From a virus: a stretch of DNA of 45,359 nt. Positions 3,182 to 42,250 of this stretch are shown in pieces. The notes under the pieces were generated by a model, which saw only the letters and a program-made list of their open reading frames with translations, searched no databases and had not been told where the DNA came from. How positions within the stretch are numbered: position 1 is the stretch's first letter; each line of letters begins with the position of its first letter. The DNA is taken from the IMG/VR virus record IMGVR_UViG_3300030101_004223, positions 1-45,359 of that record. The stretch is one strand, 5' to 3'. The translations under genes were made by a program, and so were the position numbers.

Positions 3182-3636
3182 TTCATATCAGCGCGAAGGT
3201 TGTGGACGGACAGCTCGTCCCACACGAAGACCTTCAGTTTCGTAACGAGCTTCGTAAGCTCGAAGGACATGACGTTGAAGTCACTGTCCAATCAATACGT
3301 ATACGCAGCAACCCCCAGAATAGATATTACTGGGGTACTTTGCTGTACATGATTCGAGAAGAACTCGAACAGGCCGGCTACCAAGCAAGCGACTTAGCTG
3401 CTGGTGCTACCGGTAATCTGACACGCGATCTAGTCCATGAGGTGATGAAAGAACTCTTCGCTAAGCAAGAGATATATCATCCCGAAACAGGACAAGTGAT
3501 TGCAGTAACTAAGCGGTCTACCCGTGATATGTCGACTAAGCAGTTCAAAGACTACATCGACAACATCCGGCAGTGGGCTGTAGAGAATCTGAGTCTGGAC
3601 GTGCCAGACCCAACTCACCTTTATTCCATACAGTAA
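3178..3636 (+). CDS. NinB/Orf-like recombination-associated protein (tentative)
   Basis: A 152-residue protein with a pattern I associate with phage NinB/Orf-like proteins: RSNPQNRYYWG near residues 42-52, a VHEVMKELF helix, then a STRDMSTKQFKDYIDNI segment and a C-terminal DVPDPTHL. In lambda, NinB (Orf) binds ssDNA/SSB and substitutes for RecFOR functions. It starts with an ATGA overlap on the RusA-like gene and ends with a one-base overlap on the next gene, inside the recombination cluster, which supports the role. The family match is from memory of conserved patterns and is moderate; 'conserved phage replication-module protein' is the safer statement. Confidence 0.45.
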   Translation: MIHISAKVVDGQLVPHEDLQFRNELRKLEGHDVEVTVQSIRIRSNPQNRYYWGTLLYMIREELEQAGYQASDLAAGATGNLTRDLVHEVMKELFAKQEIYHPETGQVIAVTKRSTRDMSTKQFKDYIDNIRQWAVENLSLDVPDPTHLYSIQ

Positions 3637-3845
3637 TGGGCAAATTGAAAGAGTATTACCACGAAGAAATTAATCGTGGTATCAACGGCGAAGACAAAGA
3701 TTACGCCGTATCAGGAATGGTTGCAATCACTGATGCAACAAACAACTGGCTGTCTGGCAAGATTAAAACCGCGCAGTGGGTTAAAGCTATTATGCGAGAG
3801 GTAGTAGACTTCGAGAATATGCACGACCCATGTCAGCCGAAGTAA
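3636..3845 (+). CDS. Small hypothetical protein, 69 aa
   Basis: A short ORF starting with MGKLKEYYHE and ending DPCQPK. The longer open frame starts at 3573, but the ATG at 3636 overlaps the previous stop by one base (TAATG), the spacing used repeatedly in this operon, so it is preferred. Its 3' end overlaps the amidoligase start by 16 bases, suggesting coupled translation with that gene. The sequence looks largely helical with a central Thr-Asn-Asn-Trp turn; there is no signal peptide or membrane segment. I recognise no family. Its position directly ahead of the amidoligase makes it a conceivable accessory or substrate, but that is speculation. Confidence 0.6.
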   Translation: MGKLKEYYHEEINRGINGEDKDYAVSGMVAITDATNNWLSGKIKTAQWVKAIMREVVDFENMHDPCQPK

Positions 3846-4783
3846 GCCGACAGGAGCTACACGAAGCCTTAAGGCAAGACGCTCCATACGATAACGGTAG
3901 TCTCTATGGCTACCATAGCATGAGTCCAATATGGCAATGCTCTACCAATACGACTTATCGATTCGGTATCGAGGCAGAGAAAGAAGATGCTGACGGAGAG
4001 AACATGTGCCGCTGGTATCAGGGTGACCGAGAAGAACTGTTGCCACATAGCTGGCGTGCAGAACGTGATGGTTCCCTTGGCTATCATGGCTTCGAGCTTA
4101 TTAGTCCTATCTATAACCTTAAGGCTGATAGATGGAAGACTGAGCTATCTCATCCAGTACTGAACTATCTTATCCATTGCACAACGACCTATCGCTGCGG
4201 TGGACACATCACTGTTTCTGTACGCGGTAAAGACGATCAGTGGTATGTGAATAAGGCAGCACAGATTATACCGCTGTTGTATGCGCTATATCCTAAACGT
4301 GCCAAGCGTCGTGGGTATGCCCGGTTCTACAAGAAAGGTGATTATCGAGATAGGTACAATGCTATCAACCTTGGTAGCACGGACCGTATGGAGATACGCA
4401 TCTTCGCCGGTATTAAGCACTTGAAGCAACTAGAGTGGCGTATCAAGCTGCTACAAATTCTGTTTACCACAGAGAAATATGATGACCTTAAGTGGGATAC
4501 CATTTACAAGGATCTCCTCGATGTACATCAAGGTCTCGGCAAACACATCTTCGAACTGTACGGTAAAAAGTATGGCGAGAAGGTGATGCTATCTGCTGCA
4601 TATGCTAAGGCATTCGACAACGAAAGTATCGAATGGCGTACCTATTCTAAGGTGCGGACGTTTATTCCAACAGGTGTAAGGAACCAGCTGATTGTTCAGC
4701 CCGACCCGACTCCTAAGTCTAACGCTCAACAACTCACTCTCGATGTGTGTGATTATAGTCAAGAAACAACCAGGGAAGCTTGA
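3830..4783 (+). CDS. Amidoligase (COOH-NH2 ligase, Amidoligase_2 family)
   Basis: A 317-residue protein with the motif series of the glutamine-synthetase-fold amidoligases: YRFGIEAEKE (43-52), ERDGSLGYHGFELISP (78-93), RCGGHITVSV (122-131), YNAINL (176-181) and RMEIRIFAG (186-194). These carry the acidic and basic residues that bind metal and ATP in the family. Such enzymes activate a carboxylate with ATP and join it to an amine, forming an amide or peptide-like bond. The substrate cannot be read from sequence. The next gene overlaps it by 41 bases and encodes a glutaminase-type amidotransferase fused to a gamma-glutamylcyclotransferase, a partnership predicted for phage amidoligase systems by comparative genomics. 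Likely cytosolic: no signal peptide seen. Confidence 0.78.
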   Translation: MSAEVSRQELHEALRQDAPYDNGSLYGYHSMSPIWQCSTNTTYRFGIEAEKEDADGENMCRWYQGDREELLPHSWRAERDGSLGYHGFELISPIYNLKADRWKTELSHPVLNYLIHCTTTYRCGGHITVSVRGKDDQWYVNKAAQIIPLLYALYPKRAKRRGYARFYKKGDYRDRYNAINLGSTDRMEIRIFAGIKHLKQLEWRIKLLQILFTTEKYDDLKWDTIYKDLLDVHQGLGKHIFELYGKKYGEKVMLSAAYAKAFDNESIEWRTYSKVRTFIPTGVRNQLIVQPDPTPKSNAQQLTLDVCDYSQETTREA

Positions 4784-5795
4784 TCAGTCGATTGCGACTC
4801 AAGCCCTGTGTTACAACCCACATGGTTTCGGTATACAAACCTTGGATGATGGGCAGGTATACCATAGCATGGACATTAAAGAAGCACAGGACTGGCTACA
4901 GTCTGAGCGACCTTATGTCTTTCACTCTCGTCTGACTACAGTCGGTGAGACGAATCTAGACAACTGCCACCCTGTGCAAGTCAATGAGCACAACTGGCTC
5001 TTCCATAACGGTACTGTAGCAGTACCACATACATGGGATAAGGAGAAGTCTGATACACGCTTTGTAGCAGAGACCCTTCGTAAAACGCCATGGCAATCGT
5101 GGAAGGACATCCTTTCTCTTACACCCAGCCGATTTGTATACACCCGCAAATCCAAGTCTGGTAAGATGTACGTCAACCGCATCGGTGACTGGCATGAGAA
5201 AGATGGAGTCTTTTACAGCAAGCCCAACGTACTCGACAAGAAGCACCTCGTTGCTGTCTACGGTACGCTACGCAAGGGATTTAACAACCACCGTTTGATG
5301 TCTACTGCTAATCTTCTAGATAGTGGTAATACTCTTGACCAGTACGCTATGATTGCTGAGGGTATTCCGTATGTCAACTCTCAAGCACGTGAAGATGGTC
5401 ACAACATTACTGTAGAGGTATATGCTGTGGACGACTCTGAGCTGCTCGATATGGACAGGTTGGAGAACCACCCGAACTGGTACACTCGTAAGCAGGTGCC
5501 TATCCATCTAGATAACGGGCTGGTTGTCGATGCTTGGTTGTACTTCAACGATACTGTGGACGTTGAAGGACATACATTTCTTTCTGACTTTGAACACTAC
5601 TGCAAGCCAAGGATGGAGCCGATACACCGGCATTCCATCTTTGACGAGTTAGAACAAGAAAGTCAGCACAACTATGGCTATGACTTTCTGTGGGACGAGA
5701 ACGAGAAGAAGTGGTTTAACCTAACAACTGAGCAGTATCTTACAGACAGTGAATACAAGCGTATCACTAACGAACAACTATCGCTGTTTCAATGA
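4743..5795 (+). CDS. Fused class II glutamine amidotransferase / gamma-glutamylcyclotransferase
   Basis: A 350-residue two-domain protein. The N-terminal domain (1-165) begins Met-Cys, so the catalytic Cys2 becomes N-terminal after Met removal, as in Ntn-type GATase II enzymes; supporting motifs are NPHGFG (25-30), FHSRLTTVGETNLDNCHPV (60-78), LFHNGTV (86-92) and SDTRF (103-107). It should release ammonia from glutamine. The second domain (about 168-290) is GGCT/AIG2-like, with VAVYGTLRKGFNNHRL (170-185), Glu225 in TVEVYAV and a DRLENHPNWYTRK stretch (238-250). The C-terminal 60 residues are unassigned. The frame opens at 4692, but the ATG at 4743 is required to place Cys at position 2. It overlaps the amidoligase and then the nuclease gene (ATGA). 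Confidence 0.82.
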   Translation: MCVIIVKKQPGKLDQSIATQALCYNPHGFGIQTLDDGQVYHSMDIKEAQDWLQSERPYVFHSRLTTVGETNLDNCHPVQVNEHNWLFHNGTVAVPHTWDKEKSDTRFVAETLRKTPWQSWKDILSLTPSRFVYTRKSKSGKMYVNRIGDWHEKDGVFYSKPNVLDKKHLVAVYGTLRKGFNNHRLMSTANLLDSGNTLDQYAMIAEGIPYVNSQAREDGHNITVEVYAVDDSELLDMDRLENHPNWYTRKQVPIHLDNGLVVDAWLYFNDTVDVEGHTFLSDFEHYCKPRMEPIHRHSIFDELEQESQHNYGYDFLWDENEKKWFNLTTEQYLTDSEYKRITNEQLSLFQ

Positions 5796-7704: not shown

Positions 7705-9042
7705 TTATCTGAATAAGGCAACAGAACCTTGCAAGTCTAAGGTTAAGCCATCATAGCCCTTTGCTTTCAGTATCCAAACGTATGTACCGTCCGCAGCGTA
7801 ATGACTGCCTGTTCGGGACTCGCCATACCAGTATTCGTCGTGGTCAAAAGTTTCCCAGACGATATCTCCCCATCTATTGTATATACTTAGATGCCAATCA
7901 GACCAACACGTAAAGGAGTCTGAGATTGCATAAAATGCATCATTTATTCCATCATTATTTGGGCTAAAAGCATTTGGCACAAATACGGATCTGCAATCTT
8001 CTTCCCAAAAGCCATCTTCACACGGCAATCCAGTATCGCAGTCTACAAGTTGAGTTATGTACTCATAGACTGTATCTGTTTCTGTGATGTACTCATATAT
8101 CAATACTTCTTGATAGATGGTATCTAGCTGCGTAACAACCAGCGTATCAACAACAGGTATCTCTAGAGTGTCTGTAACGTAGACATACTCCAGCTCTACT
8201 TCAGTCAAGATGAGTGTATCAATCGTATTGATATACACAGTATCAAACACATCGACATACACAGTATCATAGAAGTACCACTCCCATGGTATGTAAACGG
8301 TGTCGGCAGGTAACTCGATATAGGTTGTATCATACACAAACGTCACTACCTCTAACAGCTCTGTAATTGTATCTGGAGGTAGCTCTACAAATACAGTATC
8401 TGTTTCATAGACATATACTGTGTCTGTCACTACCGGATCTGGACACCATGCAATTCTATTATTGCTCAAGTCAATATCCGGATACATCTGCGTTCCATTG
8501 TAGTTATTGCCAGCAGACCATCCCGTATCAGGGAAGTCTTCGTAGGTAGCTGTTTGGCTTCCGTTGATTTGCCAGATAACCACCTCCCAGCAGTACCCTT
8601 CTATAGGATTATTCAAGACACACTCCCACGAATACGGAGGGTTGATACCTATTGTAGTTGCGCTGCCTGACTCCCACCCGCCAGGTGGACCGGTTGCTAC
8701 AAAACCCCACGACCAACCTGGATGGTTGTTGGCAAGGGTGCAATCTGTATTCTCACCTAGGTCTTCACCAGTAACCTCATCGATATAGTGTAAGGCAAAT
8801 ACCAAATGAGTAACTGACTCATTGTTTTGGATATCGTCATTAACCGAACTTTCACAGTTATTCCCATCCTGTAGTGTGTACTCGTTACAGCCGCAGTTTT
8901 CAGCGTTTAGAAACTGTACTACAAACTGATGTATGCCATTTGGCTCAGCAGAAGGTGTATACCCCGCTAAAACCAAGTCACAGGTTTGACTCCAAGTTTG
9001 AGAACAGAGTAAAAGACAAAGAAGAGCATAGATATAACGCAT
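7705..9042 (-). CDS. Secreted surface protein with CHU_C (T9SS type B) sorting domain
   Basis: A 445-residue protein. Residues 1-19 form a typical signal peptide (Leu-rich core, SQTWSQ end). Residues 20-205 are a Cys- and Trp-rich extracellular region without a recognised fold. Residues about 205-335 repeat a DT-[VIL]-[YFV]-[VI] unit, like stalks of Bacteroidota surface proteins. Residues about 352-445 are the gliding-motility-associated C-terminal domain: SVFVPNAFSPNNDGINDAF, then LSIYNRWGDIVWE, ending GSVALFR. In Bacteroidota this domain directs export by the type IX secretion system. It is the last gene of the late operon, two bases after the giant polymerase gene. It could be a host-surface protein made late in infection or a virion adhesin. 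Confidence 0.85.
   Translation of the reverse strand: MRYIYALLCLLLCSQTWSQTCDLVLAGYTPSAEPNGIHQFVVQFLNAENCGCNEYTLQDGNNCESSVNDDIQNNESVTHLVFALHYIDEVTGEDLGENTDCTLANNHPGWSWGFVATGPPGGWESGSATTIGINPPYSWECVLNNPIEGYCWEVVIWQINGSQTATYEDFPDTGWSAGNNYNGTQMYPDIDLSNNRIAWCPDPVVTDTVYVYETDTVFVELPPDTITELLEVVTFVYDTTYIELPADTVYIPWEWYFYDTVYVDVFDTVYINTIDTLILTEVELEYVYVTDTLEIPVVDTLVVTQLDTIYQEVLIYEYITETDTVYEYITQLVDCDTGLPCEDGFWEEDCRSVFVPNAFSPNNDGINDAFYAISDSFTCWSDWHLSIYNRWGDIVWETFDHDEYWYGESRTGSHYAADGTYVWILKAKGYDGLTLDLQGSVALFR
8041..8432 (-). repeat. DTVYV-type repeat stalk in the CHU_C protein
   Basis: About 130 residues consist of irregularly spaced units with the core Asp-Thr followed by Val/Ile/Leu, an aromatic or Leu, then Val/Ile (DTVYVY, DTVFVE, DTTYIE, DTVYIP, DTVYVD, DTVYIN, DTLILT, DTLEIP, DTLVVT, DTIYQE, DTVYEY). 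The alternating polar/hydrophobic pattern suggests a long beta-rich stalk lifting the N-terminal domain away from the cell or virion surface. Confidence 0.75.
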
Positions 9043-9044
9043 AG

Positions 9045-12000
9045 TTACATTTCTTGACGGAGGTTACGAATTACACGCATTGGGGCCTCTGTATGCGGCA
9101 CCAACTTACTTCCATGTAGCCAAAGCTTTGACTCACCTGCATATACTCCAGTCGGGACAGTGCCCTCACCCATCATGGTGTCTACTACTGCATCTCCAAA
9201 CTTCTCTACATCTTCTGCTATTTTCAAGATGGGCAGAACGTCTTGCATAATTCTTCGCTGTGACCCGACGTTACCAAAGAACTTCAAGTCATTCTCTATA
9301 CGCGATGAAAGGTTTAGTCCATAGTTCAACAAGTGTCTGACATCTTCATCATCTTCATCGTCCTTCATTGAACGCAAAGCCATAACCAGCAGATACATCC
9401 ACATCATCTGACGCATAGATGCTCCAAACTTCCGGATGTTTTCTTCATCGACTTCTGAGTACTTACTCAAGTCAATCTTGTTACCTACAATTGGCAACGC
9501 AGAAATAGTAGACTCTGTAACCTTCCGGATTTTAGATTTGAAAGACCCTTCAAGAATTACTGTTCTAATACTTCCTTTCACCTGACGATTAAGCAGTGGG
9601 TCAAATTTCTCTGCTTCATAACGCGTAGCAAATCCTTCAGGCAGCCAGCTCCGGAATTGCATAAGCATAGGACCTATCAGTGTTTGCTTGATAGGCATAA
9701 TGCTCTGAGGATCATAGTTACCGTGAATACGCTTGTTTATTTGATCTAGACGGTTTGCTAGTTCTACAAACTTGGCTTCACCAGGCCGGTAACCTTCAGC
9801 TTGGATGATACCATTTTCATCAGCCAACTCGAACAACGACTTGCCATCAACCTTTTGGTTCAACAAGTACGAAACCATAACGTGACCATAGGTAAAGTAC
9901 TCCGAGCTACGTTGGATTTCATACATCCGGATAGCTTTACTCAAGCCTTTACGCTTATTACCAATCACATCAGCCTGTGCAGGATCAAATTCTATCTCAG
10001 TGAAATCCTTGAGCATATTCAAAGTAGTCATCAAACCCTGCAGCTTACTTCCAGTTGCAGTCTTTGTAGCTCCGGTGTTAAGAGTCATTAGATTCAAGGT
10101 GCTATGCATCATGATACCAAAGGCTTGACGAGCTTCTTTTTCGTTAAAGTCCTTTTGGCCTGCCGCATGTTTCATAACCTGCATTGTACCAAACACAGCA
10201 TTTACTTGAGCAGCCGGCAGGTTCCAAGCCATTCCCTTCATCTGCATGTACTGAACGAAGCGACGTATGATTTTGGCAAAGTCATACTGGCTACCTACGT
10301 TTTTCAACTCTTCTTCTAGCTCTGCCTTCTGTACATCATACAAAGTTTTTGGAATGGCACCTACCTTACGATCCTCTTCAAGCTGTTTGAGAGAGTTTTC
10401 AATACGCAACTTGGCTTCTTTCTCTTCTGCTGTACGGGCCTTCTTAGCACCAAAGAGCATCTTACCCTCTAGGTTACTGCGGCGGCCGTAGAAGCTATCC
10501 ATAATTGCTTTAACGCTACGATTTACATTACTCCTAGCAGACTGAGTATTACTACTCATCACCGCACCTGCAGCGCTAAGAATCTTTTGTCCCATGCTGT
10601 TTGAGTGCTGGATACCTACCTCACCTAATACAGCTTCAATCATACGCACCTCATCTTCAATCAAGTTTTTATGCTTGTAAGAAGTTGCCATCATAGAGAA
10701 AGCAGCAAAGTTTTTCTCTAAATCATACTCCATACTTGCCTTATTCTTTAGCTCATTCAAGAAATAGGTTGGCAGGTTTCTTCGTACTTCACCTGTAACC
10801 GGGTCAATACTCTTAGCCAGACTGTCATCTATTTTAGTAGTAATCGATGACCACAAAGCATCATTCAAGTCCTGGCGTCGATTGTCACTCTTCCAGAACT
10901 GTTCTATCAACGACTGCTTAACTGCAGGGATGAAGAGACCTTGTTCCATCAAAGCAATCTGTCGAGCACTCATCTCATGCCGTGGTAAGGACGCTGTAAG
11001 GTCACGCATTTGCTCACGATACATTTCATAGAATGCTAGTGCAGCTGGCTCACGCTGTAGCTCTATGTATCGAGAGTCATGCCATTGCGTTTCCTTGCCC
11101 TTAATAAACCGAACGGGCATACGGTACAAGAACTCAGTATTTGGATTGCCAAATCCATTCTTGTTTATCCACTGGGCTTTCAAAGCAGCATGCTTAGACT
11201 TTGGCTCTGCAGCTTCAATCATATCGAAAGCGGCTTCACGACTATCGATATAACGCTGTACCAAACGATCTTGACGCAAGAACAACTCTTTCGTAGCAGC
11301 CTTACCCAGCTGCTTCTCCAACTCAAGTTCAATCTTGGGGTCGGGCTTACGAACTACAGTATCTGCAGTCAAATCATATGCACGCATATTAACTGTAGCA
11401 GAGTTCTCTTTCAGCCAATCCTGGAATGGCCTAAAGTTCTTTGTACGGAAAGCTTCGGCACGACGCTTCTTGAGTTCCATATCCCATTGTGCAGAGATAG
11501 GACCAATCAATTCATTAGTCTGGTTTTCTTCCGTACCCTTGACTAACCCGGACCAGCTATACTTTTTATAGTATTCTGTATCCTTAAATGCCTCACTCTT
11601 TTCATTGAACTCTGCATTACGGGCAACCCACTCAGCACGTTGAGCCTGAGCAGACTTGCGTACAACATCATCGAGATAACTCAACTCTACACGCCCTACA
11701 CGACTGGCATCCATAAACAAAGAGTTCAACGCACCAATGTCCTTCATGTCCCGGAACGTATTTTTTGTAACAAGCTCCTCTAATGGAGTACCACGATATC
11801 GCTCCCTTGCATAGTTCTGCAGAATCTCCGCACTAACATCCAACCAGTCGTCCTGCAACTGACTTGCAACACCCTGCAAACGTCCAACCTCACTACGAGT
11901 CATACCCTCCGTATCCAACAGCTTCCGACCCTTACTGTAGAAGTCGATAACAGCCTGTGCATTCTGCAGACGAGCATGTGCATAAGCATGACGTGTATCG

Positions 12001-15000
12001 CGTGTGGTTGCCTTACGGACATTCCTGACCACTTCGTTCACGTCCTCAAGTTCACGTTGCGCCATCTCCACCATAACAGTGGCGCGTACACTATCATCAT
12101 CTTTACCTTCCAGTGCCATCAGTTCCATACGCTCCATCCTCAGACGACGATCTACATCTGCCACTACCTTCGGACTGTTTTCGAACCTGGCTTTCAGCTC
12201 TTCAAATTCTGCAATACGCCGCTTCTTGTACTGCTTCAGTACTTCCAAATCAGTAGCCTTAAGCTCCTCTGCTTCAATACCTTCGGGCATAGTAAAGCTG
12301 AACAAAGTCATCTGTGAGCCAGCACCGTTCTCTTTAATGTTACTTAGGTTCTCTGCTGTCGTCTCCATCATAGAATACGATGCTGCATTTACTGCAGCCA
12401 GCGCAGAATCTTTCGAAAACTCAATCGGGTCTCCCAGTATCTGAGTATTCAGTGTAGTAATGATATCTGCAAGAACTTCATAAATCCTTTCTAACAGAGT
12501 CTTATTTGGACTCAACCGGATTTCATTCAATACAGCAGCAAACTCCGCATTTGTCATAGCCTCAGCTATAAACTCCTCTACGTTTACAAGACCATAGATA
12601 CCTTTATCGTTTCTCAGTTCCGTTTGGAAATAGCTATATGCTAGCATTAGCCTAGGATCTGTATCATCGGTCATTTCCATCTCACCTAACCGGACTTTCC
12701 TAAGTGTTTCAAAGCCTAGTTTCAGCTTCTTTACTTCAGCTGGCGTATAGCCAAAGCGCTTTGTCAATGCCTCATCCGTAGTAATCTGCGTGTACAACTC
12801 TTTCAGCTTTGCACGATTTGCAGCATTCTCTTTCAAGTTTGCTCCAATGCGGCTCATATGGTGCACCATTTCGTGCGCCAGTCTATCTGGAGTAGCCTGT
12901 GTTGCATTAAGAGTAATAATCCCTTTACTATACTTATGGTCTCCGGTCTCGTTAAAGATTACACTTACTTGATTGGCTTCATCTAACCGGTTGTTCATAG
13001 CAACCAGTTGTTGTAGCAGAAGATTGTTTTCGCCACCCAACCGACTAACTGCCTCTTCCAGTGTTACTATACCCGTAGGTACAGCCTCGACCTTTACTTC
13101 TTCCTCTTCAGGTACAGCTTCCTCTTCAGATACGATTGGTTCCGGCTGCACTCGCCGCTCTTCGTTTTCACCTGACGGTACCTCCTCTTGCTCTACCGGC
13201 TCTACTTTTTGATCCTTATAGAATTTAGAAAACTCATGCGCATTCGTCAACTCACTAGTAGCGTAGTAGTTATGCAAGTATGAGCTTTTAGGCACGGCTA
13301 CACCTTTTGCTATAACGATGCCATCATCTAGCATTTTGGTAATCTGATAGAGCCTGCCCTTTGTATCCCGGACGTATCCTATTGCATTCTTAGTAGGTCC
13401 ACCCTTGAATTGCACTTCATCGACTATATGCCGATAGTTTGGCGGATACTCAACATCTACTACAGGTGCAATTTTTGGATTGTGCTGCATAATCTGTTTA
13501 TGCATAGCAGTATTGACCTGGAAAGGAAGCTGGAAAATCTTTTGATTAGGATCGTATATGTCTTGAATGCCCATCGACTGCAGCATTTCTGCAGGGATGT
13601 ACTTGCCAAAACTTTTCGAACCCAAAGTGCCACGCATAACCAAATCATACTCAACCAAGTCATAAGCCAGTTTCTTGACTTCCGGGTTTTTGCTTCGAGC
13701 CATAGACAGGAATGCAGAATGCAACTGCTCTGGTGATACGTTAATGCTACGATCTCCTTGAAACTCAACAGTATGTAGCTTGTCCTTATTAGGAACAAGG
13801 TCAAAAGCTTCTAAGTGCTTAAGAAACAGGTTGTTCCTAATTTCAGGGTTGTTTTGTAAGGCATCTGTAACCTTCCGGGCTATCGAAGTCCCCTGGTTTT
13901 GAGTAAGCTCTCTACGTAAAACACGAGCGTCTTTACCGGTACGCTGCTCTACCCATCTAGCGGCTAGATAAGAACGCACACCCTTGTAATAGTCGGTCTG
14001 GAACTCCTTACTAATGCGGCCTGACGCTTCAATAATAGATCTACCAAAAGGTGTACCCTCCAGATGCTCTCCTTCAAGCTGCAGAATATCCGCGCTAGTA
14101 TCCTGAGCGTCCTGAAACGCCAACCCAGACACACTGTTGTTTATAAAGGCATCCAAGTCCATTGGCCCTCCAGTAGAATGCATATATGGGGAGAACGATA
14201 TGGAGTACCGTGGCCCCTCGTACGCAGGGTTTTGACGGTCTATATGGTACTGACGGAATTGACGTGCTTTCTCCATTTTGTAGAAGAACTCTCCTCTATT
14301 TTTTGGAGACGCCGTATCCATCTTCATAGTCGTCATCAAGGTTTGATAGCCCCGCTCAACTTCAGTTAGCGTTTGTAAAGCCCTATATACGTTGACACTA
14401 TGCAAAGCTTCTGTTTGTGCATCTACCTCATCAAGCAATTTGATTCCTGACCTATGAGCCAATACATTTTTAGCCATAGTGCGCTTTTGGGGCTTTTCTC
14501 CGTACTGCGCTAGATACTCCTCTTCAGCTATCTTGATCTTCTTATCTAAGTAGTCAGTTATATTGAAGTACTCATTATTACTTACTGCAGCAAACCGGCG
14601 CTGTTCCTCAATAGTCTCCACTACCTCTGGCTGGCGAACCATTATAGCAATGGTTTCCATGTTGTAGCCCATATTCGTCATATGAACCCAGAAGGGGTAG
14701 GTGTATTTGTCAATACCCAAACGTTCCAACAATTGATCGTTGGCGTTGTCTACCGCATGGTTCAAGAGCCTACTAAACTGGTCTTGGACTGTGCCTGCCT
14801 CAGTACCTTCAGGGTACTCTAAGATAAAATTGGTATCTAAAATCTCACGGTCACCAAGTCGAGCTAGCTTAATATCATCTGGAGCTGACTGTTCTGCAGT
14901 ATCTGCAATACGTACAATCTGCGAGACCGTTTTAACCTTGTTCTTGATTACGGTCGTCTTTTGATAATGCGCTAATGCTCCAGCCATTTCAAGCTGGCTA

Positions 15001-18000
15001 TGCAGAGTATTGGCATTTGCAAAAACTCCAATTGCACTTTTGGCACTACTTGCTCCTATAGCTGTACGAACGTTGTGGCGTACACTCAAAGGGTCCATAC
15101 GAGGGTTGACAGTCGCTAAGTGCCGTGCCAAAGCCTTACTGTAACCATTACTAATGGGCGTATGGATTTCCTTCTGTACCTCTTCATTAGCATTACGCAT
15201 ACTAGCATGGTACACATCAATCTGACGGTTCCGAGCAGCTGCAAGACGCCTGGAGGATGCCGGCCTCAAAACATCTTTCGCAGTGTACAGACCTTCTAAG
15301 AACGCAGAGTCAATAACCTGCTTCGAGTTATGCGTAAAGTTGTCGTACTGCAGAAGCTTTTGTGCTGCCTGAGACTCAGGGTTCTGCACAAAAGACTCCA
15401 ACACCAGCTCTCGCATAAGTTCAAGATTATCAAAGTCCTCAGTAACCTGAGGCCCACGAATCTTTTTCCCAAACCCGCCAATAGCTTTGTACTTATCGTA
15501 GGTAGTTTGATCAAACGTGCCCGACTTATTGCTTTGGTATGCATGCTCTACGCTACCATACTCCCTTCCCTCATAAGTAAACCGACGCTCAGCTAAGTTG
15601 GACAAGATGCGCGTATTCGTCTCGCTCTCGTTTTGCCCATAATAGATATTGATGGTTCCCTTATTCTCGATTTCTGCTTCACGAATAATAGTAATCTTAC
15701 CTGTATCCGGATCAAGACGATGGCTGTACATCATGCCAAACATCTTATCGATATCAAAGTCTTGTCCGATACGACCTACTAGTTCATCTGGTACGATAAG
15801 CGTATCACCCATAGAGTCAGGCAAAAACCCAACGATTTCAAAGCTGCCACTTGATGCCTTCTTCTGATTCGGAATACGATATGCGAAAACTTGCAACAGC
15901 TCTTCTGGAACCTTGTCCATATCCAACCGCTTAGTTTCCGGGTCAATAAACTTAGAGAGATTACCCTTAAACTTCCAAGGCATAAGGATTTGATCTGGCT
16001 TACCCTCGATACCGACGCGAAGTTTTTTGCCGTCGAACTTATTGCCTACCCAGACAATACCACTTTTATCCATATCAGTGATATCATCAAAAGCCATCCC
16101 CATAGCAGGTGCAATAGGGCCTGAGAAACCAGCAATGCGACTCTCTATGACTTCTTTACGGTAGATTGATTGCAGCAGACTATTGACACGCTCTTCACTA
16201 ATGCTCGCCCACAGAGGTGTTCTAAAGCGATTCTTCTTTAGGTCTAGGCGCAAGTGTGCTATTTCCGCTATCTCATAGCCCCGCTCCATTGCCTCTTGCA
16301 ACAGACGTTCAGCAAGCTTAGGCTTTACACCTTCTGCATACTGAAGGCGAGGACGATCGACTGATTTATCTAATTTAAAGCCATACCTCTTAGCAAACAT
16401 TTCACGTCGCAGCATACGCTCCTCTTTACGAGCAGCTATATAATGTTCGTGAACTTGCTTACCATTCATGGACACTCCGTTTACCTCGAAGCCGGTGTAC
16501 TCTTCTCTGGCAATATTTGCCATGACGAGCTTTGCCACCTGAGAGCCATGAATTTTCTCCTTGCTTTTACCTACAGGTACCTCCTGCTGGATTCGCATAC
16601 CGCGTCTATCTAAAACAGATTGTCCTGCCCTGATATCTTCCGGTATCTCAATCTTTCCATCTTCTGTATAGATGTTGATACCAGGTATTTTATGAGAACC
16701 GACCTTATATGCAGTTTTATGGATTGCACGGTCAATGTTATTCTCCTCCATAAGTTTACGCAGCTTATCCAACTGTGTACCCTTTGTGAATCTTGGCAAT
16801 AGCGGGAACTGAGCACTCTTTACATAGTGCATTATCCCAGCACCATCACGCATGACATTTACAGGTTTCATTGGCTGGAACCAAGACAATTCATCTACAT
16901 CCAGCTTTGCACCTGATTTTACTTTAGGCATAATACCGTTGTACTCGTCAAGAGACATCTTCCCTTGGGCCAACAAAATACCTAGATGCTCCTCTGCAGT
17001 TACGTATTCAGCAGCATCAGCTGCATCAATATTCTTATACTGACTCTTGATCTCAGATTCTGGTACACCAATCTTACGTAAGTAGTCAAGATGCTCTGAG
17101 TTATGCTTTTTATCTTTCAAGACCAATACGCTGATAGAGCTATTGCTTCTACCATTCGGCATTTCTTCATCGCTCATAATCGGTATCGCAGTACCAGGAG
17201 CAATAAGTCCTGCCAAACGCTTACCTAAGTTGTCGATTGTTCTACCTGAATCAACTACACCGTCTGTATACTTTAGGAAGGCTTCCGGACTACCCGTAAA
17301 CGCTAGCAGAGACTGTGCGTTTATAGCCCGAGACTCTGCTACATACTTTGCAGCATACAACAAGAAAGCAGTTTTACGATCTTGATTTTTGTTTTGCTCA
17401 CCGATATGAGTAATTACAAAATTTGATTCCGCTTTATCGAAGTACTTCAGCTTTCCAATAGCACCATTCCTCTTCTTATCATACGCCTCATTAGCAAGCT
17501 GATTCAAGACATACTGGAAGTCATCTTGCAGTTGAGCTGCCATTCTATTTGGAGCAGCAGAGTGAAGTGCAGCACGTTTGCCTTTAGTAATTTGACCCTC
17601 TGGCAAAAGACTATTGAGCATAGGAAACAGGATAAACTTGGCAGACATATCGCCTTGCACCCGTTGTTCCTGAATCATATCTAACTCCTTATTGACTGCA
17701 AACAAAAGCTGCTCTTTGTAGTACCGGTCTACATCTAAAAGGTCTGTTACCTGAATATCTGAAGTTGGGATATTGGTGAATTTATCTGCCTTTTTTAGAA
17801 TAGCTAGGTTCATAGCAGGCACCCGCAACAAAGGCATAGTGCTTTTGTCTGCTAGGGTAGGAAGCATGTGTCGGCTCAGAGGGCGCCCCTTGTTGTCGAG
17901 ATCATTGTCATTACCCATAAATGACATACGCGCTATAATCTGATCTGGCTCCTCCATATCATGGAAGGTGCGAGAGTCAGCAGCAGACTTCAGGTTCTTG

Positions 18001-21000
18001 ATGCCATTTACATAGTCTACTCTGACTTTATGTTTAGCCTGTTGCAAATCTGGTCTACGGATAGCCTTAACTAATGGGTTTCCTTCATCGAAACTACTTA
18101 AGTCATTCTCACGTAGATTCCGCAGTTGCACAGTCAAGTGCTTGGGAGCATGGTAGTGATACCGAAGTTTGCCATCAGCATCTCTACTAACCATCTGAAT
18201 AAGATTCTGCTGATGCTTGGCTGCACTACCAAAGAAGTTCTGGATTGCTTGCTGAGTTTCTTTTGTACTGTACCATTCAGTAGCTTCTATATCACTGGAC
18301 TGTTCCAAATAGTCTTTAAGAGCCAGTCGTAGCTTACCATAGGAAGATGCAATTCCTATCTTATTGCTCATATCAAGCCCAATACCAAAGAAGTCCTCAT
18401 TAAAGTCTGTCAAGACCTCGCTAGGAATCTGTAACCCAAAGTGCTTATAAAGCAAACGGGTTGTATCAAGAGCCTTATTAGTAGACTCATCAGCGATCCG
18501 GTCCATCTCATCAACAATAGCTTGTACCGTAGACCGATTTACTACTGTCTCTCCCCCCTTCAGCTTAAAGAACTCGCGATTAAGCATATTCTGTAGAGCA
18601 ATACGCACAACGAACTTGTCCATATTGGACTCATTACTATCAAACTGATAGATAATGCCTGGTTTGTCTTCTATATCTAAATCGATATTACCCTCTTTGA
18701 AAGGCCTTAGCTTAATGCTAATGTGACTACCGTCTTCTTTATGTGCCCAAACCACAAATTGTTGACGCATCATACGCCTGTAGTCTAAGTCTTTACCTTT
18801 TGCGTTTTTGGTATCTAGTTGGTCCAAGATGTCACCCAATACCGGTACTTGGTCTGCTCGGTCCTGCATGACTTTACTGACAGCTTCCCAAGAAGGTTCG
18901 ACCCCTACAAAGAAGGGTTGAATTTGTGCCTGCAGACTCTTGAAGTCAAGAAACTTCCTACCTAAAATGCCTTGTGTAGCTGGAGTGCTTTCTTTATGAC
19001 GCAATCCCATAAGCATTAACCGCAACTCAAAACGCATGGTTTTAGCCGGGTCCGTACCAAAAGCAAAGTTGTCATCAAAAGTGGCTAGAGCAGAAGGTTC
19101 TCTCTGTACACGATCCTCCTCTGTTTCAGGATTCACTGTTGCACCGCCTTCTTCTCCATCAATTTTATCTCCTACCTCTCGAGCTAAATCTTGGCTGTCT
19201 TCTATTTGCTCAATAGACCTAACTAGGTTTTTAGAATTTACTTTGATTACGCCATCTGCTTGACGCAGAACTTCATGAAACGCTAGCTCAACAAACTTGT
19301 CAAAGTTTTTTGGCTCTAGCATCTTCTTTACATGCGCCGCTTTCTCTTGCGCAATCTCATTTCCTACCTGCTTCTCCTGTTTCTTTTGGTAAATTGTAAG
19401 GTTTCGTTTTAGCTCGCCTTTAATTTGTTTTGCGTCTCGTGGTTTACGTCGTCCCAAGCTACGGCTTTGAGCAAGCAGCTGCTGAGAGATTTTACCTGCT
19501 AAGACATTTACAGAGTCTTGTACACGCTTAAGCGTAAAGCCCTCGACGCTGTACAAGTCTCCTGCTCGCTTAAGCATATCTTCCTCATCCTCATCGAGTA
19601 CTATTGAGAAATCAGAATCATCGGCTTCATAATTACCGATATCCTCTTCACTAACACCAGTGTTTTCCGGATTAGCATCAATGGTATCGTCTTCTTTTTT
19701 AGGAGCAGGGATACCGATCTCGGTTTTTGTTTCTAGGGTAGCATTTGCCAAACGCTTTACGTAAACCTCATTGTTTACTACCATGGGAATACGCCCTTTG
19801 ACATCACTGAAGATGACGTTCTGACCGTACCACTCTTTTTTGCCAACCATCTCCACGTCGATAGACCCGTCTTCATTGACGTTCATAGACAGTGGCAGCT
19901 CTGACTTATCCATCTGAGCAAACTGGATGCCGTAAAGCACCTTAGATAGCTGCTGTGCAAACTCTTGTGCATTGCCTTTTACCCCAGGATCATATTTCAA
20001 ATCCTTAAGCGGGTTACCATTGTCATCAAAGCGAGTAATAAATAGAGTAGGAATGTGTTCTCCTGTCTCCTTTACATACCTAAGCATTGGACGATTGGAT
20101 TCAACCTCCTTACGCTTCAACGCAATGATTTGATTCAGTACACTTTCAACCTTGTCCTTTGGGCTAGCAGCATCCTCGATAGAGTCAAACCCAAAGTCTT
20201 TGCTCAGCTTAGCCCATGCTGCTTCGTATTGAGCCTCTGTTAGACCTAAACTGTCTGCAGTGACAAAATCTCCAGCAACCAAAGCCAACTCATACATGCG
20301 AATAATAGACGTCGCTACTTTGGCTCCTATCTCTTGACCTCTAATGTCAAAGCTTTGCGTGTTATTGTTTGCATCCTTTACGGTTACAAAGGTTCGAGTT
20401 GCATTGCCGTATGTGTTTCGAGCATTACGACTGGTAGCAGTTTCAACTGTATTGTTTAATACGTCTACAACACGTCCAGGGCCGCTTTCACTTGCAGGCA
20501 ATTCCACCACAACCTTTTTGATAGCATCAAGATTGGCTTCATTATTTGTTCCGGTAAGACCCTTACCAAGTGTAATACGTAGATGCTTTCCATCTTTTGT
20601 AATAGCCCTAGTACCGGTCTGCACATCCGCTCTAACAATACTAGTTTCAAGGGGACCAAAAAGAAGCGCACTTACAATTTCAGGAGCTACGGTTTCTACT
20701 AGCGCACTATGGATAGTCTCATCTTTATAGTCATAATAGACATAGCCACCTACCTTACGAACTACAATAGTGCTACCCTCTCCAATATTGTCTACAATAG
20801 CTTGAGCTGCACCTTTTCGCTTTGGATTTGCTTTACCTATATCTGCAATATCAATACCATCTAGTACGATAGACCCCATCTCAAAGACTACTGTACCCTG
20901 TTCAGTGGATTTAGTACGCTGTTGCTTTTTTGCTTCTATCTCCTCAAGAGCTTTACGGCGCATCTCCTCCGCAGTGCCCTCTTCAAATTCCGCACCAGAT

Positions 21001-24000
21001 TCCGGATCAACCGGACCATCCTCATCATCAATTACATTATCATCTATAGGAATGAAAGTATCGTCTCCTGACTCTGGGTCTATGGGGCCATCTTCATCAT
21101 CTTCTACTATATCAGATACTGGACCATCTTCAGGATCTTCCACATCTCTTGGCGTATCCTCCGAGGTCGGCTTTGCTTTGGGCGGCTGCTGACTGGGTTC
21201 ATCATTATTGACATCTTCTTCAGCCTCTTCATGGGCACGCTTGGCTTCATTCTCTTCCTCAACCTTTACAGGGTCTTCCTTAAGTTGAGCTTGAATACCT
21301 CCGGATAGACTTGCAACAAACCTATCATACCCCCCTGGCTCTAACAGGTTGTTGTACATACGGATAAGAGCAAGCCGGTCTAGAGCAACCATACGCAGGT
21401 CGTTCAGTACACTGTCTTTATCCAAGTTGTTTTTAGCAAACGACCCAATCTCTTCGCCACTTTCAATCAAAGCCTCATTCAACCTAAAGAGTGCGTCTAC
21501 TCGAGACTGGGCTTTTTCTAAATCAAACCCGTACTCTCCAGACAAAGCATCTTCTAGCTCTTCTCGTTCACGCATAATGCGCTCACGTTCTTCCTCCAAT
21601 GCCTTAATCTCTTCTTGGCGTTTGGTAGATTTTTCTTGATCTACATTACTGATTTGACCTGCAGCACGTTTTGTTTCAAGCTGCTTATCAATCGCCTGCA
21701 AACGCCGTTGACTTTTAATAGCTTTGTTTAACGTTTTTTCGTCAACGTTAAACGCAGTCATCACTTTGACTGCATCCAATACCTCTGCACCTGTAAGATT
21801 GCGCAAGTCTTTAGACAGCTCTTCTGCCATAGATTTTTCACGCGCATCTTTATCATTGATGTTGTAGAGCATATGTGCCAAAGCAGTATGTACCTCCGGA
21901 TCTTCGCCTTGGTAAATACTCTCACTAGCCTCATACGCTTGCTTAACCATGCCCATACGCTCTTCGAAGCGCTGTACAGCCCTAGTTTTTGCATCAGATA
22001 TTTCTGATTCAGTCATGTTAGACACATGTACCCCATCACTTTCCGCTAACATTTCACGGAACTCCTCGTTGGTTTGCTCTTCAACAATTCCCTTAAACTC
22101 TGCAATTGCATCGTCATAACGACCCGTAGTAAGCTTAGAGCTTGCAAAGCTGAAGATGCTATCCCCCTCAATGTCTTTTAAGACTTTTAGATTGCCCTCT
22201 GTTGCAGCTTCTTTATGCTGCTTTTCCAAACCCTGCATACGTACAGCATGGTCTAACTCTGCTCGCATAACCGCTCCTACATCGCCGTTTTCTTTGTGCA
22301 ATTGAAGGATGCGATCAACTTGCTTATCTCGAGCTAGCTGCTGCCTACGAATCTCACTGGCACCACCGATAAAACGTGGCTTGATTTTCTTGCCGTCCGC
22401 ATCAACGCCTTCACTGTATACGTTACCAATCAAGACGTTAGGCAAACCCATGTAGCCAATGACTACACCAAGAGCTACTTCTTTCAGACCTTCTGCGGTA
22501 CCGTATGCCCCTTGCAAACCTTCTACAAAGCTGTCGGTATACTTGACCACTTTGTCTCTGTTATCCGGATCATACTTTTGCGCAATAAAGTCTTTGGTAG
22601 ACCGGCTGATTGTACCCTGACCGCCTTCCTCTACAAAACCTTCATATAGGGCAGAACGACCTCGAGCTGTAGCACGACCCATTCGACCACCAAGAGGATT
22701 AAGAATGTCTCCGCTGTAGGCTACTCTACGTGCTCGTTGCACATCTAGAATATCTGGCAGGTCGTCCCACTTTTTACCGTATGCCTTAGCTATCCGCTGC
22801 TGTTGTTTTGGATTTACGATAGAAGACTTATTTATAAAGCGCTCTACGTTCATGCCTCGACGCATACCTAGCCCAAATAGTTTTGGGAACATGAGCATAT
22901 TACCTACCCCTACAAGAGCCAGGTTAGCTCCGAATACGGCGTCTCCATATTTGCTGTTTTCTTCCCTAAACTTTGCTTTGTCTTCTTCTGTCATAGGCAC
23001 ACCAAATTGACGCTCAAACTCTCGAGAGCGCTCTTCAGTAGCTTCATTAAGCATATGCCTCGCCTCTAGTCCTGCTTCCATACCAGCACCAGTAAGAAGC
23101 TGTCGAGAGACCCTAGCAAGGCTAGAAAGTTTTGTTGCCCTATCAATAGCCGCTCCCGCTTGACCTAATGAAGCAGCAGCAGTTGCACGTGTAGCATCGT
23201 CACCAAGTTTTGTCGCGCCTTTGAGTGCATCATCTACTGCTGTTTTACCGATGAACCGGCGACCTCCACTCGCTAATTGCTTCATTACACGCGCACCCCT
23301 AGCAACAAGACCAGCCGTTGCAGCTGCTTGCACTGGGGCAGCAGCACCTCCAGTTAATGCTGTAGCCGCACTTAGCCCTACCTCTGTAAGTACCGCACCA
23401 GCCACAAACGATAAAGCCCCTGCAAACTCGTCTACTAAACCCACGCCCTTTTTAAGTAGGCCCTGGTTACCACCCCGTGTTACCTCAAACTGCTCATTAA
23501 ACCCTTCCTGAGCGCGGTCTAATGCGTTTGATAACGTGTTATCATAGATTTTAGTAAGGTCTCCATTAGCAAGAGCAGCTCCTGCTCCATATGCCATACC
23601 TACAGTTCCTTGTGCAACATTGATACCGGTATCCGCAACAAATCCCAAAACAGTATTACTCAACTTACCTGCAATACCTTGTGCTTCTTGTGACCGGTTG
23701 TATGTATCAGAATAGCCAGTGAAGGTACTTCCTTGGTTTAGCTTTTTAGTTGTACGAACACCAAGAAAACGCCGATCACTAAATTGATCAAAGTCATAGT
23801 CCATACGTGCATCCTGTCCGTTGTAGAGGCTGACGTTACCGTCACCATCCCGGAAAAGCATGCCCTTTAAGGTTTCACTTGTTACCTCCTTACCTGATTG
23901 AACTGGAGGATCTGGCTCCTTTTCTTCGACAACTGAGGGTTGTCCAGTGAGAGCTTCACGCAAATCTGCGTCGGATACTCCTGACAAAGAGCCTGGAGTA

Positions 24001-31575: not shown

Positions 31576-32619
31576 TTAATAAATTACATAGTTTACACCT
31601 ACTGAAAACATGTGCCACTGCCGGTTCCAATACCGGTGAAATGTACCCTCACCGAATATCCCAAGACTGCGAGTGATTCTCCAGCCGCTGATAAGACCAA
31701 TAGACATGTCAAGCCATTGGTTGCTACCAACAAGGTTGTTGTATGAGTAAGGGTTAGTTGTAGCCAAATGAATAGGGTAGAAGTTTGTCCAGCTATGAAT
31801 CCACAGATCCTTGCTGTTCTGGTAGTAGTCAAAGCCAATTACCGCACTGTGACACCACTGTGCAGGCAGCTCATTGCGCTTCTGAGCTACGTAGTCTGAC
31901 AATACCTGTGGAATTACTACCTCCCGCCATACATCAATACTATTTGCTACAACTGCACCATCAGGGTCAATAAACTCCTGTGTAGCAAAGTCTACACTGT
32001 AACCCTGGTCAAGTGCCAACGACGTGTAGTGTATAGAGTTGTTTGCTTCTACCCATTCAGCAATAGGATCATAACCATATGCCTCTGAGATACGCTGAGC
32101 AATACCAACGTTGAATGAAATCTTGCCTTTGCTGTTGAGCCGGAGACGCTGACTAGCTTCAGTATAGCCTACATCTGCAAATCCATCTTCGAGGTACTCA
32201 ACCTTTGCAAGCCACCGCTTTGCTACATACCGCAAGAAGTGATGCTGATTGACACGTGAGATACCCTGCTGACGTCTGTAGTCAATCTCCGCTAAAAACT
32301 CAAAGCCTTGGCGCTTACCAATTGTAGCATCATCGCCATATGTTTTTTCAGTACCATCATAAAACACATTAGCTCGATTCTCGTAGCCAAAACGTGCAAT
32401 CTTACGAATGCCCAAAGTCAGGCTGTAGTCAAACGGCGTTTCAATCTGCTCGTACAGTACTGTATTACCGTCAATAGAGTATGCTTCTGTTGTTGCCAAA
32501 GAGTTGTTGCCATTGGCTGCAGCATACAGCGTAGAGAACTTGAACAGGTTGTCAAACACTCCCTGTCCAACACACATAGCTGGCAGGACACAGAACAGTA
32601 ATGCTACCAAAAGTCTCAT
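31576..32619 (-). CDS. Outer-membrane beta-barrel-like protein with signal peptide
   Basis: A 347-residue protein from ATG at 32619 (MRLLVALLFCVLPAMCVGQ), which overlaps the previous stop (ATGA); the open frame extends further but the signal peptide fixes this start. The mature part alternates polar and hydrophobic/aromatic residues in short segments (YSLTLGIRKIARFGYENRANVF, GFEFLAEIDYRR, MSIGLISGWRI) and ends MFSVGVNYVIY, a terminal aromatic beta strand typical of outer-membrane barrels. I recall similar proteins (a GIRKIARFGYE...FYDG motif) in other marine phages; this was not checked. It probably inserts in the host outer membrane late in infection, perhaps with the T9SS protein encoded directly upstream. 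No resemblance to PorP/SprF was obvious. Confidence 0.65.
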   Translation of the reverse strand: MRLLVALLFCVLPAMCVGQGVFDNLFKFSTLYAAANGNNSLATTEAYSIDGNTVLYEQIETPFDYSLTLGIRKIARFGYENRANVFYDGTEKTYGDDATIGKRQGFEFLAEIDYRRQQGISRVNQHHFLRYVAKRWLAKVEYLEDGFADVGYTEASQRLRLNSKGKISFNVGIAQRISEAYGYDPIAEWVEANNSIHYTSLALDQGYSVDFATQEFIDPDGAVVANSIDVWREVVIPQVLSDYVAQKRNELPAQWCHSAVIGFDYYQNSKDLWIHSWTNFYPIHLATTNPYSYNNLVGSNQWLDMSIGLISGWRITRSLGIFGEGTFHRYWNRQWHMFSVGVNYVIY

Positions 32620-34790: not shown

Positions 34791-34987
34791 CACGTACCTA
34801 CTTTTTTCTGCGCCATTTTATGTGACGCAGTAAATGTTGCACCCTTTTTCATAGCATCGACCATAGCTTTAATATGCTTCTTGGTATGATGTACAGAATG
34901 CTTTTTAAGAGTAGTAGCTTGTCTAGATGTAAGCCCTTTCGTTGAAACACCTTTTACAGTTTTCACTGTTCTACTTTTTGCTGGCAT
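34790..34987 (-). CDS. Small basic His/Lys-rich protein, 65 aa
   Basis: The ATG at 34987 (MPAKSRTVKTVKG) is chosen because it follows a 19-base A/T-rich gap after the DUF5872-like gene; the open frame upstream overlaps that gene. The protein is rich in Lys, Thr and His (KKHSVHHTKKHIKAMVDAMKKG), has no acidic cluster and ends KKVGT. The helix HIKAMVDAMKKGATF may be amphipathic. It is the fourth of four adjacent small basic proteins and ends with a one-base overlap on the T9SS protein gene. A DNA-binding virion protein is the most natural guess. No family recognised. Confidence 0.55.
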   Translation of the reverse strand: MPAKSRTVKTVKGVSTKGLTSRQATTLKKHSVHHTKKHIKAMVDAMKKGATFTASHKMAQKKVGT

Positions 34988-41167: not shown

Positions 41168-41622
41168 TGTTTAAAGTTCAAGTGTGCAAATTCATCTGTA
41201 CGCAGTTTTTCGACCAGCTTACGACGATTGCCCTTTAGTCCTCCTGTAGGTGCAAACGTGTAAACGCTCTTGTTCTTTACCAGACATCGGTGCTTGTCCC
41301 AATTCCACCGATAGTAAAAATCATCAGTGTAGTAGACTAGCTGCTTTACCCCTTGCTTCTTCAGCCGATTGGTCTCTCCCCAATCGATAGTAGGCTTGTT
41401 AAAGGTACGGGGTATCTTTTTAATTCTTATCGTCCCAAGCCTCTGTCCCATATTAAAGACACTGCCTTCAAGGACATGCTCACATACTCGCTTGTTGAAA
41501 CGACTAATTATGTGTTTGTATCCCGAGTACGTTATTTGGGTATCCGGGTTCTGTTTCTTGAACCACCGGTAAGAATCTTTGGTACTAAACCTACTCGCTG
41601 AGCTGTACTTCGTCTGACTCAT
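41164..41622 (-). CDS. Conserved phage protein of unknown function, 152 aa
   Basis: A 152-residue basic protein: RWFKKQNPDTQITYSGYKHI, then FNKRVCEHVLEGS, FNMGQRLGTIRIKKIPR, KQLVYYTDDFYYRWNW and FAPTGGLKGNRRKLVEKL. The many aromatic and basic residues suggest an RNA- or DNA-contacting or assembly protein. I recall this gene type beside ring/tail genes in Bacteroidota and other marine phages but know no function. The start lies 32 bases inside the preceding gene and the end overlaps the ring-like gene by four bases, so production is coupled to tail assembly. Confidence 0.6.
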   Translation of the reverse strand: MSQTKYSSASRFSTKDSYRWFKKQNPDTQITYSGYKHIISRFNKRVCEHVLEGSVFNMGQRLGTIRIKKIPRTFNKPTIDWGETNRLKKQGVKQLVYYTDDFYYRWNWDKHRCLVKNKSVYTFAPTGGLKGNRRKLVEKLRTDEFAHLNFKQ

Positions 41623-42250
41623 TCTGTCTGTTTTCTACACGCATTTCTGTAGCCAGAATGCTTTGTGTAATTCTTTGAATCATATCCATAGAGATTGGAT
41701 ATTGTCTATCTTCTGGTAATGAAGTCTGCGGATTATTACGATCTATGTCCGCAGTAAACGCAAACAGCTCTTCGGGTTGCTCAAAAATCCCTTTCACCAT
41801 AATAGCAGCAGGGCGAGCATTGATTACATAGATTCGCTCATTCTTGTAGATATACCTAGGATACTGCTTTTGGTATTTACCATAAGAAGCATACTCAGCC
41901 TGTACACCACTAGTTTGCTGATACGGAATCTTGCCGTCAACTGTACCCACATAAGCAAATGTGCTTCCATCATAAAGACGCACGGGCTTTGGAATTCTAT
42001 CAGAACGCCATACTTCACACCCAAAGTCGACTGTACTTAACCCTTCTACCTCAGTTACTGGAGACATAGAAATTTCATCCAGTTTTTGAATAAACTGAGG
42101 AGGTATGCTATGGTTGCGCTTTTGGTCTTGACGAATAAACTGAGCGCGATAGTATCCTACCATAAACTTCAGACGTTCCAGCAGCACAGTATCGTCTGCC
42201 TTCTCCACCTGCAAAGCAATATTGTAGACGATTTCATTTAGCGTTGCCAT
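41591..42250 (-). CDS. Head-tail ring/connector-like structural protein, 219 aa
   Basis: The N-terminus MATLNEIVYNIALQVEKADD, a helix with ERLKFMVGYYRAQFIRQDQ and a central beta region with GIFEQPEELFAFT form the arrangement I associate with Bacteroidota-phage ring/connector proteins, which carry a 'V.GIFE.PE' signature. The C-terminal 40 residues are acidic and probably flexible. No enzymatic motif. It starts 13 bases inside the 3' end of the holin gene. Assignment is by pattern and position. Confidence 0.55.
   Translation of the reverse strand: MATLNEIVYNIALQVEKADDTVLLERLKFMVGYYRAQFIRQDQKRNHSIPPQFIQKLDEISMSPVTEVEGLSTVDFGCEVWRSDRIPKPVRLYDGSTFAYVGTVDGKIPYQQTSGVQAEYASYGKYQKQYPRYIYKNERIYVINARPAAIMVKGIFEQPEELFAFTADIDRNNPQTSLPEDRQYPISMDMIQRITQSILATEMRVENRQNESDEVQLSE

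Follow-up and report, generated by a model that had tools for sequence, protein, structure and literature searches.

A candidate two-protein amide-bond module, an amidoligase and a glutaminase-cyclotransferase fusion, in phages that probably infect Bacteroidota

Introduction

What would a phage amidate early in infection, and might two proteins be enough to do it? Amidoligase cassettes of phages were predicted by Iyer 2009, as cited in PMC5498523 and PMC11945000 (also Hardies 2013), and in the literature covered here their function is still given as a prediction. In the cassette of phiEco32, LUZ24, RIO-1 and CW02, as described there, GATase and GGCT are encoded by separate genes and are accompanied by an ATP-grasp enzyme and a COOH-NH2 ligase (PMC5498523, PMC11945000). 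Published readings of such cassettes include a change of the cell wall against superinfection (PMC5498523, PMC10580990, PMC11945000) and a role in nitrogen metabolism (PMC10945688). Larger cassettes comprise five or more genes and are hard to dissect.

The DNA studied here, hereafter the window, is the entire record IMGVR_UViG_3300030101_004223 (45,359 bases), possibly a fragment. In its region 3636-5795 the initial annotation recognized an amidoligase, followed with a short overlap by a polypeptide uniting a GATase II and a GGCT domain, and considered the 69-residue product of the gene just upstream (P69) as a partner or substrate of these enzymes.

Results

Gene layout of the locus

All three open reading frames were found where the initial annotation had placed them, as was the overlap of 41 bases, and the neighbouring genes agree with the early recombination/replication context assigned to them (Table 1). 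For the fusion the ATG TGT at 4743 was taken as the start, while the list of open reading frames begins at an upstream TTG, 4692. Comparison between relatives gave pN of 0.03-0.37 versus pS of 0.44-0.84 in P69, amidoligase and fusion; substitutions are thus mostly synonymous in all three, as expected for real genes. In the window clade the enzyme pair is flanked by P69 and a RecE/ExoVIII-type exonuclease, and in the distant clade genes for a Sak annealing protein and an exonuclease lie downstream of it. The overlap, in which the amidoligase tail (...LDVCDYSQE...) is out of frame with the start of the fusion (MCVIIVKK...), has constant length in all checked loci of the window clade, down to 46% identity of the amidoligases. 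Conservation of this tail can be explained by the bases it shares with the Cys2 N-terminus of the fusion.

Table 1. Features of the amidoligase locus, in positions of the window
Feature	Coordinates	Strand	Basis
P69, 69 aa	3636-3845	+	ORF list
Amidoligase, 317 aa, predicted glutamine-synthetase fold	3830-4783	+	PHROG, AF2, PDB/BFVD fold matches, hhalign, motifs
Predicted GATase II + gamma-glutamylamine cyclotransferase fusion, 350 aa from ATG 4743	4743-5795	+	Pfam, PHROGs, AF2, Foldseek
Predicted GATase II (Ntn glutaminase) domain, residues 1-166	4743-5240	+	invariant columns, 1xff match, hhalign
Predicted GGCT/GGACT domain, residues 168-275	5244-5567	+	Pfam GGACT, Glu82 alignment
C-terminal extension of the fusion, residues 315-347	5685-5783	+	pLDDT 67-84 there
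Amidoligase/fusion overlap, 41 bases	4743-4783	+	identical length in 21/21 loci

A divergent amidoligase

In single-sequence searches the amidoligase had no Pfam match and only a weak one to the amidoligase family PHROG 7469 (E 4.4e-5). Compared by hhalign with a profile built from eight amidoligases of annotated phages, it matched with a probability of 96.7% and E 4e-10. For the AF2 model built on an alignment of 31 relatives (pLDDT 83, pTM 0.82), the best PDB matches all belong to the glutamine-synthetase superfamily (maximum Z 9.6, over 172 residues); gamma-glutamylmethylamide synthetase, YbdK and PafA/Dop are among them. Glutamine synthetase, GmaS, YbdK and the PafA/Dop superfamily share this fold, but at about 10-14% identity, so that their substrates are not transferable to the phage enzyme. 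Among viral predicted structures of BFVD 44 matched at E<=1e-3, and those that carry a name are mostly phage amidoligases.

The core of the protein spans approximately residues 39-262; the tail 296-317 is predicted to be disordered, with pLDDT <50 in the part encoded by the overlap. Four motifs were recognized, namely G46-x-E48-x-E50-K, E78-x-D80-x-S82, C123-G-G-H126 and E188-x-R190, and their GxExE, DxS, GGH and ExR signatures are kept in 72-76 of 76 aligned sequences, the remainder being gaps in truncated sequences. The usual HIH (HxH) reads HIT here, with Thr128 in place of the second histidine, and details of substrate or metal binding may therefore differ. Having neither a match to the Pfam model nor the histidine pair, the protein is, as judged from its sequence, a divergent relative of PF12224 outside the family proper. 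The assignment as an amidoligase made by the initial annotation is nevertheless upheld by the profile match, the GS-type fold and the conserved motifs: profile and predicted fold together firmly mark the product of 3830-4783 as a GS-fold amidoligase, presumably of the ATP-dependent type.

A glutaminase half and a cyclotransferase half in one polypeptide

Pfam searches found GGACT in residues 170-276 of the fusion (1.7e-21) and, weakly, GATase_6 in residues 52-93 (9.1e-4). In Foldseek the AF2 model (pLDDT 86) matched 1xff, the glutaminase domain of GlmS, as well as human GGACT. In the GATase half Cys2, R63, N89-G90 and D104 are invariant in alignments of relatives, and this half also matches a GATase II of haloarchaeal viruses (hhalign E 1.1e-8). 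For the GGCT half human GGACT and PH0828 are the closest solved folds, and its profile matches GGACT structures 1vkb/3jub/3jud with E about 1e-15 to 1e-17. It carries YGTL (173-176) and an invariant candidate catalytic Glu241, which is aligned with the catalytic Glu82 of human GGACT (3jub/3juc/3jud), the LDxLE of the fusion standing opposite LDDFE; the human enzyme, in contrast, is a single domain without a glutaminase. The Pfam matches, the predicted structure and the architecture shared by relatives thus agree on a single polypeptide in which an Ntn glutaminase (Cys2) is followed by a GGACT-type cyclotransferase, both activities being predicted.

Loss of Cys2 or of the GGCT glutamate in relatives had been named as evidence that would speak against the proposed amide-bond system. 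Both halves are present in all 67 distant loci, and both residues occur in every complete sequence. Conservation of Cys2 is partly ascertained, as this residue belonged to one of the search patterns; it is also present in loci gathered by amidoligase or other fusion patterns and in two phages that tblastn recovered. Glu241 was absent from the viral search patterns that gathered the IMG/VR relatives. At the C-terminus 54 of 59 distant-clade fusions carry a CxxC...CxxC zinc ribbon, the cysteines of which are missing from residues 315-347 of the window fusion. A separate Cys-rich gene was found in 13/59 distant loci.

Linkage of the two enzymes

A profile-guided scan of IMG/VR revealed relatives of the fusion on 149 viral contigs, 80 of which were kept. 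Within the stretch fetched, an amidoligase lies upstream of the fusion on the same strand in 61 of the 67 distant loci, and overall it is linked to the fusion in 64 of them: two records (L082, L092) have it elsewhere, and in C75C1 it is a PF12224 amidoligase (3.5e-30). The only distant loci without a linked amidoligase (L090, L091, L110) are truncated upstream. Distances of 1-4 kb between the two genes are frequent in the distant clade. Evolutionary distances of amidoligase and fusion correlate with r = 0.79 (permutation maximum 0.27), no higher than the 0.86 obtained with the neighbouring exonuclease, and this mirror-tree correlation was therefore rejected as proof of interaction: it reflects shared descent and no special bond.

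Scans of genomes, which used two peptide patterns each and were not exhaustive in coverage, found the complete fusion only in two contigs of Bacteroidota MAGs (L152, L153); other matches were the GGCT half or a part of the fusion, and an initial scan with poor patterns had given no match. The idea of a chromosomal version in an operon that might inform on function was rejected, both contigs being distant-clade phages by gene content.

A sister lineage lacking the pair was gathered with the neighbouring RusA as bait. Its seven contigs (L221-L227), with RusA 60% identical, keep primase, RusA, NinB, P69 and exonuclease, as well as UDG where the contig extends so far. Neither amidoligase nor fusion stands between P69 and the exonuclease there, and in the remainder of these short records no amidoligase was found. 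Since both enzymes are missing while the flanks are intact, the pair comes and goes together. This joint absence, along with co-occurrence elsewhere, supports the earlier proposal that the two enzymes work together.

The same comparison decides against P69 (3636-3845) as a partner or substrate. It is retained in the sister lineage without the enzymes and therefore belongs to the RusA-NinB backbone, and in the distant clade, where both enzymes are present, it was not detected. Of the trio expected across phages, the amidoligase-fusion pair thus stands and P69 does not.

Enzymes searched for in the same records

Two further members of the larger cassettes were looked for in 40 fusion-bearing records. 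COOH-NH2 ligase (PF14395) and RimK-like ATP-grasp were found in none of them, and the same searches recovered each in 4/4 cassette phages. Very divergent ATP-grasp members could be missed and the records may be fragments, so the absence is strong only as a pattern. Proteins of the thymidylate-synthase/hydroxymethylase family also gave 0/40 (9/14 in control genomes), which weakens DNA modification through hydroxymethyl-pyrimidines, the only route covered by this search.

Host

Both the window and relatives from the two clades encode T9SS sorting domains, two distant-clade phage contigs were binned with Cytophagales and Flavobacteriales MAGs, and the window encodes a crAss-type ring protein. The hosts are probably Bacteroidota.

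Discussion

Relation to known systems

Kinship to the phage systems of Iyer and Aravind, suggested by the initial annotation, is supported: amidoligase, GATase II and GGCT are shared with them. As in the phiEco32/LUZ24/RIO-1/CW02 cassette, the genes are early and lie beside replication genes, but here GATase and GGCT form one protein, and ATP-grasp and COOH-NH2 ligase were not found. In mycobacteriophage Marvin (gp105/gp106) and OM43 phage MEP402 an amidoligase-fold protein adjoins a class II GATase, which, unlike the window protein, has no fused GGCT and a different C-terminus; a homologue of Marvin gp105 from phage Tesla was matched by the fold search with the amidoligase. Arthrobacter phages of cluster AL (gp97/gp98) have an AIG2-like GGCT adjoining an amidoligase, whereas no GATase is reported beside this pair (PMC5513430). 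The same fusion with an amidoligase upstream occurs in C75C1 and Podoviridae sp. ctfjg026 (MW202828) at 39-40% identity, but there the fusion is annotated only as 'gamma-glutamyl cyclotransferase', and the ctfjg026 amidoligase as hypothetical. The window pair is thus a two-gene, virus-specific variant of the predicted phage amidoligase cassettes. Neither the GATase-GGCT fusion nor the two-gene form is described in the literature found by a search that left most subscription journals outside.

Proposed mechanism and target

With evenly balanced confidence we read the pair as a two-protein, glutamine-fuelled amide-bond module of probable Bacteroidota phages, a reduced relative of the multi-gene amidoligase cassettes. 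The glutaminase half would split host glutamine and supply ammonia; the amidoligase would activate a carboxylate with ATP and couple it with either this nitrogen or another amine, yielding an amide; the GGCT half would cleave the gamma-glutamyl moiety from gamma-glutamyl-amines as 5-oxoproline, so that the conjugate is trimmed or recycled. A matched dose of the enzymes early in infection would follow from fusion and translational coupling. This scheme assumes that the amidoligase receives ammonia from the GATase half; a GS-fold ligase could use free ammonium instead, and Ntn domains such as EgtC hydrolyse gamma-glutamyl bonds.

As a target we tentatively favour, with slightly less than even confidence, a cytoplasmic precursor of the cell envelope or another small metabolite, an amine or a carboxylate. 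A protein of the host or the phage is possible, if doubtful, some other target is unlikely, and nucleic acid is scarcely probable. The GGCT reaction requires a free alpha-amine on the glutamyl residue, and intact murein stem peptides are therefore not its substrate; free precursors, small metabolites or glutamylated side chains would be. The expected benefit would be an altered infected cell, for instance superinfection exclusion or host takeover, rather than the building of virions.

Alternative readings

One can assume, following the proposal for the phiEco32/LUZ24/RIO-1 cassette, that the substrates of the pair are murein peptide precursors, whose amidation or cross-linking would block superinfection. 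This reading has been published for the related multi-gene cassette (PMC5498523, PMC10580990, PMC11945000), a likely Bacteroidota host has murein, and its precursors are made in the cytoplasm, where enzymes with no noted export signal would act. However, the three-linkage scheme proposed for that cassette needs the ATP-grasp enzyme and the second ligase, both not found here, and the D-Glu of intact stem peptides does not offer the alpha-amine needed by GGCT. Haloarchaea lack murein, and an amidoligase-like gene adjoins GATase II in viruses that infect them, with homology at the level of motifs: in ChaoS9 and PhiCh1 the gene beside GATase II carries HGMEVE, DxS, SHVH and ELR, and gave no Pfam match and no significant result in profile comparison. 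It was therefore rejected as proof against murein and is treated as a lead. Altogether we regard murein modification as rather unlikely.

Alternatively, proteins of host or phage may receive a gamma-glutamyl or amide mark in a PafA/Dop-like system, with the amidoligase writing this mark and the fusion erasing or trimming it. PafA/Dop are among the fold matches of the amidoligase, GGACT cleaves gamma-glutamyl-epsilon-lysine, and the zinc ribbons that recur with the system could recruit a macromolecule. Plain glutamine synthetases, however, score at least as well in the fold search; no conserved small tag protein was found, and with P69 outside the module a pupylation-like arrangement is not seen. 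A protein mark thus appears unlikely to us.

An increased turnover of glutamine, glutamate or glutathione-like compounds, as claimed for phage ZRK32, seems decidedly unlikely. This phage has the same enzyme types and reportedly raised growth on ammonium or nitrate, but the report covers the phage as a whole and not its genes singly (PMC10945688); moreover, a futile combination of ligase and glutaminase would add little to hosts that already own GS and GATases. Very unlikely too is a minimal virus-only writer and trimmer, in which, early in infection, the amidoligase would conjugate glutamyl or amide groups to macromolecules of the host and the fusion would feed nitrogen and remove gamma-glutamyl, a reversible tagging analogous to pupylation. 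Hypermodification of DNA bases by amide-linked groups, a substrate raised in the initial annotation because the genes lie among recombination genes, has no positive evidence and is highly improbable, given the lack of thymidylate-synthase-type enzymes and an early position that is non-specific, being shared by cassettes of other phages.

Meaning of the two-protein form

Reading the pair as a two-protein amide-bond module, we deal with a system of two coupled proteins, which form a well-conserved, abundant and hitherto unannotated viral family. With only two proteins to follow, and a sister lineage that has no such pair at the same site, what phages amidate, and why, becomes testable.

Amidoligase neighbourhoods in related and other viruses

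Between amidoligase and fusion, 13 of 59 distant-clade loci (L078, L086, L099 and L113 among them) encode a Cys-rich protein of roughly 96 residues, which is conserved and has the motif WECxxC...ERC...CRGC...WCDKCY. Possibly, it is the zinc-ribbon N-terminus of amidoligases of the type found in mycobacteriophage Marvin, detached from the enzyme. In the sister phages L221–L227 two small ORFs occupy the amidoligase and fusion site, while the complete set of flanking genes is retained together with a relative of the 69-residue protein P69, ending in a C-terminal CxxC...CxxC zinc ribbon. The amidoligase match in the record containing L082 is interrupted by two in-frame stops, one TGA and one TAA, meaning that either the gene is broken or the sequence contains an error.

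Haloarchaea, the hosts of ChaoS9 and PhiCh1, have no murein. The gene adjoining the class II GATase in these viruses has the amidoligase-like motifs HGMEVE, SHVH and ELR; its homology did not reach significance in profile comparison. In Bifidobacterium phage BA720P3 an unannotated GATase II (MCVIV...) is encoded two genes downstream of a protein with a Cys-rich N-terminus and the motifs FGIEIE, GGHIHV and IELRTF.

Features registered in the window and in the compared records
Feature	Location	Strand	Match
Class II GATase and adjoining gene with amidoligase-like motifs, ChaoS9 gp45/gp44	L041:6836-8489		
Class II GATase and adjoining gene with amidoligase-like motifs, PhiCh1	L042:6843-8489		
GATase II and protein with amidoligase motifs, BA720P3	L046:2868-5027		
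Amidoligase match, record of L082	G016:C1:26257-27207		
T9SS sorting-domain proteins	window 7705-9042 and 32616-34793	(-)	CHU_C 2.3e-17; Por_Secre_tail 4.4e-6
Giant polyvalent virion-type protein, single 4,992-aa ORF	window 9045-24023	(-)	PHROG 16227, 1.8e-40
crAss-type tail ring protein 2	window 41591-42250	(-)	3.7e-29

Sorting domains and virion type

According to domain matches, two phage proteins of the window end C-terminally in sorting domains of the host type IX secretion system (T9SS). Comparable domains were registered in five further records among those tested, with both clades represented. A published report describes T9SS cargo encoded by one glacier phage (PMC7468147). Based on the match to tail ring protein 2, the virion encoded by the window is crAss-like, although the window differs in its early region.
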